Shown: positions 27,864-32,269 of the stretch, piece after piece | Position numbering within the stretch: the first letter of the stretch is position 1 | Layout: each line of letters begins with the position of its first letter | Source of the DNA: Hydrogenimonas sp. | Lineage (GTDB): Bacteria; Campylobacterota; Campylobacteria; Campylobacterales; Hydrogenimonadaceae | NCBI GenBank assembly: GCA_015490295.1 | Contig: WFYC01000055.1 | Location: 1-50,457 of the forward strand | Direction: 5' to 3' | DNA: 50,457 nt | Program-made: the position numbers and the translations under genes | The notes under the pieces: generated by a model | The model's database searches: none | What the model was told of the DNA's origin: nothing | The model's input: only the letters and a program-made list of their open reading frames with translations

Positions 27864-29078
27864 TTAAAATCTAATTATGAACCTGTTCTTCTCGTTAACA
27901 TACTCGTAGGCAAAGAGAAATCCGTGCGCCTTGACTATGATATCGACGATATAGAGCCCAAGCCCGAGCCCGCTGACGGCACCTTCGCCCTGTGTATAGG
28001 GCCTTGTATAGTAGTCGAGAGGGTGCTGCAGCTTTTTTCCCCTGCTCTCTACGACAATCTCTTCACTGTCGGCAACCACCTTGAAGTGTTTGTCGGGTGA
28101 GTACTTTAACGCATTGTCCAACAGGTTTTTCAACGCTATGCTGAATAGTTTGAAGTCCGCCTCGATGCGCACAGGGGCTATCTCGTACTCCCCCCTGCTC
28201 TTCTCTATCATGGCAAGATCTATAGCCTGATCCACGATATCCTGTATCATGAGTGCTCTTTTGTCTATCGGAAGGCGGCCGCTGCTCAGCTGCTCTATCG
28301 TCGAAAACTCGTTGATCGCACCGTCAAGGCGCACAAAGATGCTTTCGAGCCTCTCCTTCTGCTTCGACTCGGGCAGCATCTGCACTATCAGGTTCCCTTT
28401 CGCCAAAGGGGTTTTGAGCTCATGCATAATGTTTCGCATAAAGAGATTTCTCGAACTAATCAGCGCCCTTATTCGCTCTATCGCCTCGTCTATCGCCTGC
28501 GAAACCTGCGCTATCTCGTCGCTGCCTTCAATTTTGCAGTGCACGTCGAGATTCCCCTCTCCGAATCTTCTGATGCACTGCTGCAGAGACTTCAGTGGTT
28601 TGAGCTTCAGCCATATAGCCCAGTATATAAGAAGGATCAAGAGTGTGGTCAGACCGAAATAGATCCAGACTATTTTGGGATCGTAGGGCTTGAACTTTAG
28701 ATCTTCAAAGAGTATCAGTCTGCCGAAACTGTTTATAAGCAGATATATCCTGCCATCTTTTTCAAGCATATCTATAAAGCCGAATGCTGTGGGCTGGCGG
28801 CCGAGAAGTTTTGCTCCCTTTAGCAGTCGCACCCCCTCTTTGCGCTCTTTTATCCACTTCATACCGTATTTCAGCGCTGCCTCTTCGATCTCTCCCGGCA
28901 GAGTGCTGCGTTCCATGCGAAGAAGGATATTTTGCGCAAAGAGGATGTTGCGCTGAACCATAATCTGGGAATGGCGGTACCTGTCTCCGACGGAGTAGAA
29001 GTAAAAAGCGGTCCCGGCGGCAAGGATGGCTATTACGAATATCGCGGTTATAAAGAGGAATATCGATACGCGTCTCAT
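27864..29078 (-). CDS. cprS: Sensor histidine kinase, CprS-like
   Basis: A 404-residue membrane kinase. Membrane segments at about 6-28 and 136-157 flank a periplasmic sensor region; then come a HAMP-like linker, the phosphoacceptor H219 in NIMHELKTPLAKG, an N-box KNLLDNALKYSP and a G-box VSGLGLGLYIVD. The short, ArsS/CprS-type ATPase domain is typical of Campylobacterota. Its partner regulator gene overlaps it by four bases and htrA lies upstream, the order of cprS-cprR-htrA in C. jejuni, where the system governs envelope genes. The symbol rests on that synteny; ArsS or RacS would be the alternatives. Confidence 0.85.
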   Translation of the reverse strand: MRRVSIFLFITAIFVIAILAAGTAFYFYSVGDRYRHSQIMVQRNILFAQNILLRMERSTLPGEIEEAALKYGMKWIKERKEGVRLLKGAKLLGRQPTAFGFIDMLEKDGRIYLLINSFGRLILFEDLKFKPYDPKIVWIYFGLTTLLILLIYWAIWLKLKPLKSLQQCIRRFGEGNLDVHCKIEGSDEIAQVSQAIDEAIERIRALISSRNLFMRNIMHELKTPLAKGNLIVQMLPESKQKERLESIFVRLDGAINEFSTIEQLSSGRLPIDKRALMIQDIVDQAIDLAMIEKSRGEYEIAPVRIEADFKLFSIALKNLLDNALKYSPDKHFKVVADSEEIVVESRGKKLQHPLDYYTRPYTQGEGAVSGLGLGLYIVDIIVKAHGFLFAYEYVNEKNRFIIRF

Positions 29079-29755
29079 GGGGTCAGCCGATACCCCAAAC
29101 CGCGAACCGAGCGTATATAGCGCGGATGCTTCGGGTTGTCGGACAGCTTGTGGCGTATTCGACTGATAATTACATCTATGCTTTTTAGCGAGCTCTCTTC
29201 GTGAATCGCATCTACGCTATAAATAAGATCTTCTCTCGAGACAACTTCATTCGCATGCTCAAGCATATAGGAGAGAATTCCATACTCCGCTGCCGTAAGA
29301 TGGAGCGGCTCGTTCTTGAAATATATCATCTTGGTATCACTGTCGATACGAAGATCGGCCTCTTTTTTTTCATCCTCACCACGCTGACCATCACGCCCTA
29401 TTCGCCTGAGAATGCTCTTTATCCTGGCGACCAGCTCTCTGGGGTCATAGGGCTTCGGAAGATAGTCGTCGGCCCCCTTTTCCAAGCCGACTATCTTGTC
29501 CGTCAGGTCGCTTCTTGCCGAGGAGATCACGATGGGAACGTCGCTCCTTTTGCGTATCTGCTCGCACACCTCCAGACCGTCCATTCCCGGAAGGCTGAGA
29601 TCGAGGATAACGAGATCGAATTCATGCGTATCGAGCTCGCTCAGTCCCAAAAAAGGGTCCGGTACGTTGATCGTCTCTATATTGAAACGGTGAAGATATT
29701 CGCTCAGAATCTCTGCGAGCTCCTCGTCATCCTCTATCATCAGAACCTTGGCCAT
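29075..29755 (-). CDS. cprR: OmpR-family response regulator, CprR-like
   Basis: A 226-residue regulator with a receiver domain (phosphoacceptor D52 in DLVILDLSLPGMDG, acidic pair at 9-10, conserved K101 in YLPKPYDP) and a winged-helix DNA-binding domain ending IRSVRGLGYRLTP. It should bind direct repeats upstream of envelope genes when phosphorylated by the adjacent kinase. Three GTAAAC repeats in front of htrA resemble the [G/C]TAAAC consensus I recall for C. jejuni CprR. It starts 8 bases after the htrA stop. Confidence 0.88.
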   Translation of the reverse strand: MAKVLMIEDDEELAEILSEYLHRFNIETINVPDPFLGLSELDTHEFDLVILDLSLPGMDGLEVCEQIRKRSDVPIVISSARSDLTDKIVGLEKGADDYLPKPYDPRELVARIKSILRRIGRDGQRGEDEKKEADLRIDSDTKMIYFKNEPLHLTAAEYGILSYMLEHANEVVSREDLIYSVDAIHEESSLKSIDVIISRIRHKLSDNPKHPRYIRSVRGLGYRLTP

Positions 29756-29763
29756 ACTCTCTC

Positions 29764-31158
29764 CTATCGGACGACCAGTATCCTTATCATCCCTCTTCTG
29801 TTTACATAGACTCTTTTGTCACCGGGGTACTTCTTCATCGCTTTTTGGATATCGCCGACCCGTTTTATCATCGTGTCTTCTATCTGAATGATAATATCTC
29901 CGGCCATAAATCCCGCTTTATCCGCCGGGCTATCGGGCTTGACCCCCGTTACTATAACCCCTTCGATATCCTCGGGAATCCCCATCTGCCTGCGCATACG
30001 CTCGGTTAGATTGCTCAGCTCAAGACCATCCACGAAACCGCCCTCACCACCGCTTTTCATACTCCTTTCGGGGAAGTGGGCCAGTTTGACTTTCACACTC
30101 TTTATCTTTTTGTTGCGCTCAAACGTCAACTCCACCACACTGCCCGGGGAAATGGACCCGATCGCGTTTTTGAGATCACTGGCATCTTTTATCTCCTGAT
30201 CGTTGACCCTGATTATAAGATCGCCCCGTTTCAGGCCGGCCTTTTGTGCAGGAGTATCTTTATCGACATTCAGAACTACAGCACCCTCCTTGTTTCTGTA
30301 TACCTTCTGCAGCTGCGGCGTAAGGTCACTGATACTGACTCCCAGATATCCGTAATCGACCTTGCCGTGCTCTATCAACTGTGTAGCGACTCGCTTGACC
30401 ATATTGACCGGAATCGCGAAGCCTATCCCGTTGTTGGCTCCGCTTCTGGTTATGATGGCGCTGTTTATTCCTATCAGTACACCGCGGCTGTCTACAAGTG
30501 CCCCGCCGCTGTTTCCGGGGTTGATGGCGGCATCCGTCTGTATGAAGTTCTCATACTGATTTATTCCGACACTATCTTTTCCCAGGGCCGATACTATCCC
30601 CTGGCTTACACTCTCGCCGACGCCGAACGGATTTCCTATGGCAAAAACCAGGTCGCCTGTCTTAAGCGCATCAGAGTTGCCCATCGTTGCGGCCGGAAGC
30701 CCGCTAGCATCGATCTTTATAACGGCTATATCGCTTTTCGGATCCGTTCCGACCACTTTCGCACTGTAATCTTTTGTGCTGCCCGGAAGTGTCACATGAA
30801 CCTCATCGGCATCTGCCACGACATGGTTGTTTGTGACTATATACCCGTCACTTGTTATGATCACACCGGACCCCAGAGAGTGCTGTATCCTCTCTCTTGG
30901 CATCGCCTGCCCAAACGGCATATTGAAAAACTGCCGGAAAAAGGGGTCCATGAATGCGGGCGGAATATTCTGACGCACCCTCTTTTTCGCGGATATATTC
31001 ACAACCCACTCCCTCGCATCCTTTATAGCTTCGTTGAAAGAGAGTATCTTTCCCGCCTCCGGCATAACACGCTCTGCGGAAGGTGCCTGTTTGAACTCAA
31101 CACTGCTGGCCATGAGAGAAGCCGCCAAAACAGCGGACACAACTATTGTCTTTTTCAT
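29764..31158 (-). CDS. htrA: Periplasmic serine protease/chaperone HtrA (DegP family)
   Basis: A 464-residue Do-type protease for misfolded envelope proteins. It has a signal peptide (MKKTIVVSAVLAASLMASS), a trypsin-like domain with catalytic triad H112 (TNNHVV), D143 (KSDIAVI) and S217 (NPGNSGGAL), and two PDZ domains (YGYLGVSISDLTP and GVIVTGVKPDSPADKAG). In C. jejuni it also cleaves host junction proteins; here it is presumably a stress protease. The start follows AGGAG by 9 bases. It is the first gene of htrA-cprR-cprS and has an unusually structured leader. Confidence 0.96.
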   Translation of the reverse strand: MKKTIVVSAVLAASLMASSVEFKQAPSAERVMPEAGKILSFNEAIKDAREWVVNISAKKRVRQNIPPAFMDPFFRQFFNMPFGQAMPRERIQHSLGSGVIITSDGYIVTNNHVVADADEVHVTLPGSTKDYSAKVVGTDPKSDIAVIKIDASGLPAATMGNSDALKTGDLVFAIGNPFGVGESVSQGIVSALGKDSVGINQYENFIQTDAAINPGNSGGALVDSRGVLIGINSAIITRSGANNGIGFAIPVNMVKRVATQLIEHGKVDYGYLGVSISDLTPQLQKVYRNKEGAVVLNVDKDTPAQKAGLKRGDLIIRVNDQEIKDASDLKNAIGSISPGSVVELTFERNKKIKSVKVKLAHFPERSMKSGGEGGFVDGLELSNLTERMRRQMGIPEDIEGVIVTGVKPDSPADKAGFMAGDIIIQIEDTMIKRVGDIQKAMKKYPGDKRVYVNRRGMIRILVVR

Positions 31159-31186
31159 ATTTTTATTCTCCTGAAAACTCTTTTAG

Positions 31187-31306
31187 CCGGCTCTTTGGCA
31201 GGCCCTGCAAGGCTGCTGTAAATCTTGGAAGGTCTTGCATAGCTGAACACAGGCAGTCTAAAAGGAGGAGCAAAATGTCGCCGGGCAGGGCCTGCCAAAG
31301 AGCCGG
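31187..31306 (-). repeat. 22-bp perfect inverted repeat in the htrA leader
   Basis: Arms at 31187-31208 and 31285-31306 are exact reverse complements, separated by 76 bases. Inner sequences near 31212-31218 (CTGCTGT) and 31249-31256 (ACAGGCAG) could extend pairing imperfectly. The whole lies between the predicted htrA transcription start near 31313 and the htrA ATG at 31158, so the htrA RNA would fold into a long hairpin. The loop, read in the htrA direction, contains CTCCTCCTTTT, which can pair with the htrA Shine-Dalgarno AGGAG. No T run follows, so it is not a simple terminator. Confidence 0.85.
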
Positions 31307-31319
31307 TTTCTCAATTTGT

Positions 31320-31325
31320 ATTGTA
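31320..31325 (-). promoter_or_regulatory. -10 box for htrA-cprRS
   Basis: TATACAAT on the minus strand, with the first GTAAAC box (GTTTAC in this direction) ending about 11 bases upstream. It would give a leader of about 155 bases. Confidence 0.45.
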
Positions 31326-31336
31326 TACGCACCTCG

Positions 31337-31374
31337 GTAAACACCCGACAACGAATCGTAAACGGAAGGTAAAC
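31337..31374. promoter_or_regulatory. Three GTAAAC direct repeats between divergent promoters
   Basis: GTAAAC occurs at 31337-31342, 31358-31363 and 31369-31374, spaced 21 and 11 bases, so all three face the same side of the helix. Direct repeats with one-turn spacing are typical for OmpR-family regulators, and the CprR-like gene is the second gene of the adjoining operon. The boxes cover the -35 region of both divergent promoters. Confidence 0.6.
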
Positions 31375-31389
31375 GGTCCGTTTGGATGG

Positions 31390-31395
31390 TATAAT
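31390..31395 (+). promoter_or_regulatory. -10 box for the gene at 31451
   Basis: GGTATAATTT, 16 bases after the third GTAAAC box. Transcription would start near 31402, giving a leader of about 49 bases. Confidence 0.55.
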
Positions 31396-31450: not shown

Positions 31451-32269
31451 TTGGGCATATTTAAAAAACTTACGGCAGTCATCATAATTTTGGTACTGGC
31501 CAATATCGGCTTCATCTGGTACGGCCAAGCCAGCTTTGAAGCTACGGTAAAAACATTGGCGAAGTCGTTTACGGAAAACAATACTACTGCAAACCTCGGC
31601 GATCCGGCTGCAGAAGATATTGAAAAATATATTGAAAAAAGCGGGCTGAAAGAGCATCCGTATAAGACCATTGCCGTACAGTTTGAAGGAGAGTACAGAA
31701 ACAGGCCCTCCTCTAAATGGGCAAAGATGCACTCGCTGGCGCTTCTTAGGCCCTCTGCCGATATGATGTGGGCTGTTAAACTTGAAACCAACCCGGTCGT
31801 AACGTTCAACGCACTGGAGACATACCATGCGGGCCGTGCGTCTATGCAGATGCTGCTTTTTGGCATCATACCTACCGGCGAAGTGGAGGGAAAAGAGTTT
31901 GCCCGCTCGGAGCTTGCACGTCTTCTTGCATACAGTGTCTACAACCCAGCGCTGCTCGAACTGCCCTCCATAGAGTACAGGGCCGTTGACGAGAGGAGAA
32001 CGGAGGCCACCATACACGACGGCAATATCAGTGCGACGGTGACTTTCGTTACATCTTCAAACGGCGATATCGTGGAGATTACGAGCGGTGACAGGGTGAG
32101 ACCGCTGAAAAAAGGGGGCTTTATGCGGACCGCATGGCGTATGCAGATAAACTCTTACGGAGAGTTCGACGGACTGCGTCTTGCCAAAGATGTAGTGGAG
32201 GCGTGGATAGTCGACGGCAACTCCATAGAGTACTCAAAAAGCAGACTCGACTCCGCAAAACGGCTGTGA
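31451..32269 (+). CDS. Membrane-anchored protein of unknown function (DUF6544/DUF6920-like)
   Basis: 272 residues with one N-terminal membrane segment (about 7-24) and a long extracytoplasmic part. Conserved-looking blocks are QFEGEYRNRPSSKWAKMHS, ETYHAGRASMQMLLFGIIPTG, SELARLLAYSVYNPALL and FMRTAWRMQINSYGEFDGLRL. From memory these resemble a widespread uncharacterised family (DUF6544/DUF6920). The start is TTG behind AAAGGG; no ATG is available near the membrane segment. It is divergent from htrA and shares the GTAAAC boxes, so a role in envelope stress is plausible. pgeF overlaps its end as GTGA. Confidence 0.7.
   Translation: MGIFKKLTAVIIILVLANIGFIWYGQASFEATVKTLAKSFTENNTTANLGDPAAEDIEKYIEKSGLKEHPYKTIAVQFEGEYRNRPSSKWAKMHSLALLRPSADMMWAVKLETNPVVTFNALETYHAGRASMQMLLFGIIPTGEVEGKEFARSELARLLAYSVYNPALLELPSIEYRAVDERRTEATIHDGNISATVTFVTSSNGDIVEITSGDRVRPLKKGGFMRTAWRMQINSYGEFDGLRLAKDVVEAWIVDGNSIEYSKSRLDSAKRL

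Follow-up and report, generated by a model that had tools for sequence, protein, structure and literature searches.

A structured C/U-loop RNA in the 5' leader of htrA in the genus Hydrogenimonas

The htrA gene of Hydrogenimonas sp. (Campylobacterales; assembly GCA_015490295.1, contig WFYC01000055.1) is preceded by a long inverted repeat, and the question raised by this locus is whether the repeat works as an RNA structure and, if so, whether it acts on htrA or on other genes. A sequence-only reading of the window (the whole stretch of 50,457 nt analysed here) had placed perfect 22-bp arms, 76 nt apart, in the htrA leader, and had suggested riboswitch-like or thermosensing control of htrA or, as an alternative, a small palindromic mobile repeat. 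The features of the locus are listed in Table 1.

Table 1. Coordinates of the features at the htrA locus, numbered from the first letter of the window
Feature	Position	Strand	Basis
Sensor histidine kinase, ArsS family	27864..29078	-	NF038389, 401 bits, cut-off 250
Response regulator, OmpR type	29075..29755	-	Pfam Response_reg (receiver) and Trans_reg_C (C-terminal DNA-binding)
htrA, Do-family serine protease	29764..31158	-	TIGR02037 above cut-off; ATG at 31158
htrA ribosome-binding site CAGGAG	31168..31173	-	sequence
3' stem arm	31187..31208	-	complementarity and covariation
Loop, 76 nt	31209..31284	-	identity to two nearest relatives above htrA four-fold sites
28-nt stretch GCUAUGCAAGACCUUCCAAGAUUUACAG	31216..31243	-	identical in window genome, G001 and G002
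Box A (main C/U box) GCUCCUCCUUUU, two overlapping CUCC, anti-SD-like	31260..31271	-	CUCC enrichment, predicted unpaired
5' stem arm, 22 bp perfect	31285..31306	-	complementarity and covariation
-10 element TACAAT (predicted)	31320..31325	-	TACAAT or TAGAAT 5' of the stem in 17/17 leaders
Third GTTTAC element	31338..31343	-	sequence; recurs in relatives' leaders
GTTTAC-N5-GTTTAC direct repeat (likely response-regulator site)	31358..31374	-	3 genome copies; similar repeats in other leaders
DUF6544 gene, divergent, upstream of htrA	31451-32269	+	

The hairpin and its conservation in Hydrogenimonas

The arms were complementary at 22 of 22 positions across the 76-nt spacing, as had been described, and the loop of the htrA-sense RNA reads at box A as given before. 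When mismatches were permitted the arms reached 27 nt at 93% complementarity, and the runner-up inverted repeat in the 50-kb window, at a spacing of at most 300, had arms of only 11 bp. The fold predicted for the htrA-sense RNA (31150-31330) has an energy of -65.2 kcal/mol (z = -4.96 against shuffled sequences). A genome-wide copy search, for which the sequence-only reading had asked, found the element once in the 1.77-Mb genome of the window, and a covariance model placed it at a single site in each of the 17 genomes with a readable leader; in some of these the palindrome scored on both strands. No relevant match to the hairpin was obtained in Rfam up to E = 10.

A hairpin of like plan was found at the htrA leader in all 17 readable Hydrogenimonas leaders; the eighteenth genome (G014, 76% complete) gave no full-length HtrA match and thus no readable leader, and was left out of this count. 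The arms diverge widely among the species but remain complementary, with 96.6% of cells paired over 29 pairs. Two-sided changes were seen in 23 of these pairs and the covariation score was 0.643, compared with 0.224 for shuffled and at most 0.161 for slid controls, on a MAFFT alignment that was not structure-fitted and whose rows had been trimmed manually to the ends of the stem. RNAalifold recovered the stem unaided, with two-sided changes in 21 of 24 pairs. Loss of the arms as a pair in relatives, which had been named as grounds for rejecting the hairpin, was therefore not observed, since the arms co-vary in 17 leaders. The htrA-leader hairpin is a genuine structured RNA, previously uncatalogued.

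Among the genomes searched this structured leader is confined to Hydrogenimonas. In a search of 120 genomes the covariance model gave weak matches only (E 0.01-0.8) in other genera; these lay outside htrA leaders, appeared to be mostly coding and were taken as chance. The other Campylobacterales htrA leaders examined were without the element, and short near-start hairpins in L050 and L104 were rejected as copies, as they look like terminator-type stems.

The irregular positions of the stem indicate which molecule is under selection. G.U pairs (G.T in DNA) outnumber A.C mismatches 18 to 3 (p = 7e-4, an approximate value as related sequences are not independent), and 13 to 3 when each distinct type of column and pair is counted once. 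Had the likeness of the arms been maintained in the DNA or through templated repair, the two kinds of irregularity would be expected about equally; the excess of G.U points to selection on RNA of the htrA strand, and the functional molecule is most likely the htrA-sense RNA.

In six leaders (L013, L015, L016, L018, L019 and L020) an additional small hairpin stands ahead of the main stem, and a further stem of the GGGCACC..GGTGCC type lies in the loop between two CUCC boxes.

Promoter, neighbouring genes and loop

On the minus strand htrA is followed by the response regulator and then by the sensor kinase, the order in which Campylobacter jejuni carries htrA and CprRS. The divergent DUF6544 gene has its own TATAAT at 31390-31395, past the hairpin, which would then be transcribed with htrA only. 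The DUF6544 gene and htrA have a common intergenic region genus-wide, and the TATAAT is retained in many relatives.

GTTTAC-type direct repeats precede the -10 element in Hydrogenimonas htrA leaders. The exact GTTTAC-N5-GTTTAC occurs 3 times in the genome of the window and 0 times in a reversed control, and the copy before htrA is likely the response-regulator site of the htrA promoter. Transcription is predicted to start near 31313; the -10 element together with the upstream repeats argues for a start on the 5' side of the hairpin. The stem begins 10-16 nt past the -10 element in most species, which puts it within a few nt of the predicted 5' end, and in seven species the gap between stem and start codon is just 23-30 nt, which leaves no space for a later promoter and ribosome-binding site. 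A start downstream of the hairpin, the other objection foreseen by the sequence-only reading, is thus not what the leaders suggest, the predicted promoter being 5' of the hairpin in all 17. Many other Campylobacterales have similar repeats and a TATAAT-like element before htrA, with a leader of only ~25 nt.

In the cropped set the loops are 42-92 nt long. They hold 35 copies of CUCC in 17 loops, compared with 10.4 expected by shuffling and a maximum of 20 in 500 shuffles, and 16 of the 17 loops have at least two copies. On average the CUCC boxes are predicted to be 85% unpaired, against 62% for the entire loop. A C/U-rich loop that is predicted to be single-stranded and could pair with G-rich ribosome-binding sites is therefore present. 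Loop identity to the two nearest relatives is 87% and 82%, whereas at four-fold sites of htrA identity is 52% and 38%; conservation above four-fold sites indicates that the loop sequence matters and that a plain stabilising stem is insufficient as an explanation. Identity to the fourth subgroup member (L007) is 53%, and loop sequence and length are strongly divergent between Hydrogenimonas subgroups. A genus-wide, single-copy structured RNA thus forms the 5' htrA leader; its stem measures about 22-29 bp, and its loop holds CUCC boxes that are predicted to be unpaired.

On the plus strand the loop at 31262-31277 reads AAGGAGGAGCAAAATG, a ribosome-binding site with an ATG. A small plus-strand gene there was considered and taken as chance, as the ATG is lost in most relatives.

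Candidate functions of the leader

Thermosensing found no support when folding was predicted at five temperatures between 37 and 75 °C. The htrA ribosome-binding site is not in the stem and its predicted unpaired probability changed little (0.62 at 37 °C, 0.72 at 75 °C), while the stem is predicted to stay closed up to 75 °C, so an RNA thermometer was rejected. The riboswitch-like character suggested before holds in so far as the structured leader is real, but no described Rfam family was matched.

We favour, with somewhat less than even confidence, a reading in which a C/U-loop small RNA is freed by RNase III and represses the G-rich ribosome-binding sites of other mRNAs. RNase III was found in 16 of the 18 genus genomes and Hfq was detected in none of the 18; the long duplex, the C/U loop, RNase III and the lack of detected Hfq match CJnc190, and on these grounds the small RNA is favoured. 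The two-component system directly downstream of htrA would drive the htrA promoter, and RNase III would cut the long duplex of the transcript. The cut would leave an htrA mRNA with a short leader and would free a small RNA made up of the loop and part of the stem. Its C/U boxes may pair with other mRNAs at their G-rich ribosome-binding sites and repress these mRNAs. One transcript could then give both a protease and a regulatory RNA. That a two-component-controlled htrA mRNA doubles in this way, through an RNase III cut in its leader, as the precursor of a trans-acting small RNA is proposed more tentatively. No terminator consistent across the leaders follows the stem. Genus-wide, complements of box A were not above control; in G002 box A has many possible pairing partners, and the ranking there gave no convincing conserved target. 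Long-duplex target energies disregard accessibility and were set aside. Considering the divergence of the loop between subgroups, shared targets would depend on the short C/U boxes.

Control in cis, in which the C/U loop folds onto the htrA Shine-Dalgarno sequence and blocks translation until a target RNA, a protein or cleavage releases it, has in its favour that a 5' leader is the natural site for it and that CUCC and the GGAG core of the ribosome-binding site are complementary in nearly all species. The loop pairing proposed in the sequence-only reading is indeed possible, over about 5-7 bp, but co-evolution of loop and own ribosome-binding site was not seen: own-species pairing was not better than swapped pairing (mean -9.05 vs -9.63), in a test which, given a nearly invariant core, can detect only co-evolution beyond that core. 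In addition, htrA ranked 1247th of 2257 genes for box A pairing in the complete genome G002, the one genome ranked, and stem and start codon are anywhere from 23 to 337 nt apart, depending on the species. In G007 (spacer of L018) the hairpin and the htrA ribosome-binding site are separated by an inserted dispersed repeat of ~270 bp with inverted ends, GGGCACCTCTAAA... (several copies of this repeat occur in G002, near 571111, 1577536 and 341695). The variable distance and the G007 insertion fit a part that acts apart from the ribosome-binding site, and control in cis appears somewhat unlikely. The hairpin might also shield the 5' end of the htrA mRNA from a 5' exonuclease, or be an RNase III site that sets the lifetime of the mRNA, with no role in trans; a very stable stem lying so near the predicted 5' end in most species would suit this, yet the conserved loop and its CUCC boxes would be left unexplained, and we consider it unlikely.

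It is quite improbable that htrA expression is controlled through a protein or the transcription machinery binding to the C/U loop (e.g. at a NusB/S10 boxA-like or Rho-type site): the loops are pyrimidine-rich with repeated short boxes, but the boxes GCUCCUCC, ACUCCCUU and CUCCUUUCC vary more widely than the boxA consensus would permit. Template switching can homogenise the arms of a palindrome, and dispersed repeats that end in long terminal inverted repeats do occur in Hydrogenimonas genomes. Even so, it is very improbable that the hairpin is a mobile palindromic repeat, or a palindrome of DNA whose arms template-switch repair has homogenised, as the element is a single copy at one place, always before htrA, in the 17 readable leaders, its loop is conserved and its stem shows the excess of G.U over A.C given above; the mobile repeat of the sequence-only reading was accordingly rejected.

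The hairpin represents an RNA family that Rfam lacks; it covaries very strongly and is present genus-wide, in genomes without detected Hfq. If the favoured small RNA is real, the envelope stress response would gain an RNA arm from the 5' end of the protease mRNA, and the genus would be a natural system for testing RNase III in the making of small RNAs. CpxQ is a stress RNA cut from the 3' end of an mRNA, and the freed loop would be a 5'-derived counterpart to such 3'-end stress RNAs. If the htrA mRNA is also its precursor, envelope proteolysis and post-transcriptional repression would be joined in one transcript.

Comparison with known systems

In kind the hairpin would belong with the C/U-loop regulatory RNAs, and its new feature is the position in the 5' htrA leader; no precedent for a C/U-loop regulatory RNA as the 5' leader of htrA was found in the literature searched. 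In pre-CJnc190, RNase III cuts an intramolecular duplex and the C/U loop binds a G-rich ribosome-binding site (PMC8687705). CJnc190 of Campylobacter jejuni and RepG of Helicobacter pylori are, like the hairpin, from Campylobacterota and have a C/U-rich loop suiting G-rich ribosome-binding sites. CJnc190 also shares the long intramolecular duplex, whose cutting by RNase III is proven for pre-CJnc190 (PMC8687705), while we infer it for the hairpin. However, CJnc190 (opposite CJnc180) and RepG are free-standing small RNA genes, whereas the hairpin is the 5' leader of htrA.

The Listeria LhrC RNAs, of the LisRK regulon, are G-poor, bind Shine-Dalgarno sequences through several CUCCC/UUUU boxes and are induced by cell envelope stress through the two-component system (PMC4132741). 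They resemble the hairpin in their C/U boxes but are free-standing, multicopy and unrelated in sequence. RNA thermometers (ROSE, fourU) are likewise leader structures of heat- or stress-related genes, but the stem of the hairpin does not hold the ribosome-binding site.

The streptococcal CiaRH csRNAs carry anti-SD boxes, and the CiaRH regulon includes htrA and has TTTAAG-N5-TTTAAG promoter repeats (PMC3091779, PMC4507080). These repeats and the Hydrogenimonas GTTTAC-N5-GTTTAC have an equal spacing of 11 nt. Unlike the hairpin, the csRNAs are separate small RNA genes with terminators, in several copies and in Gram-positive bacteria.

One of the other exact copies of GTTTAC-N5-GTTTAC in the genome of the window stands before a moxR-type operon (G000:C3:7994-8010, L259), and a relaxed form of the pattern stands ahead of the moxR-type operon in other Hydrogenimonas members. 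Judging from the shared repeats, htrA and the moxR-type operon probably form one response-regulator regulon.
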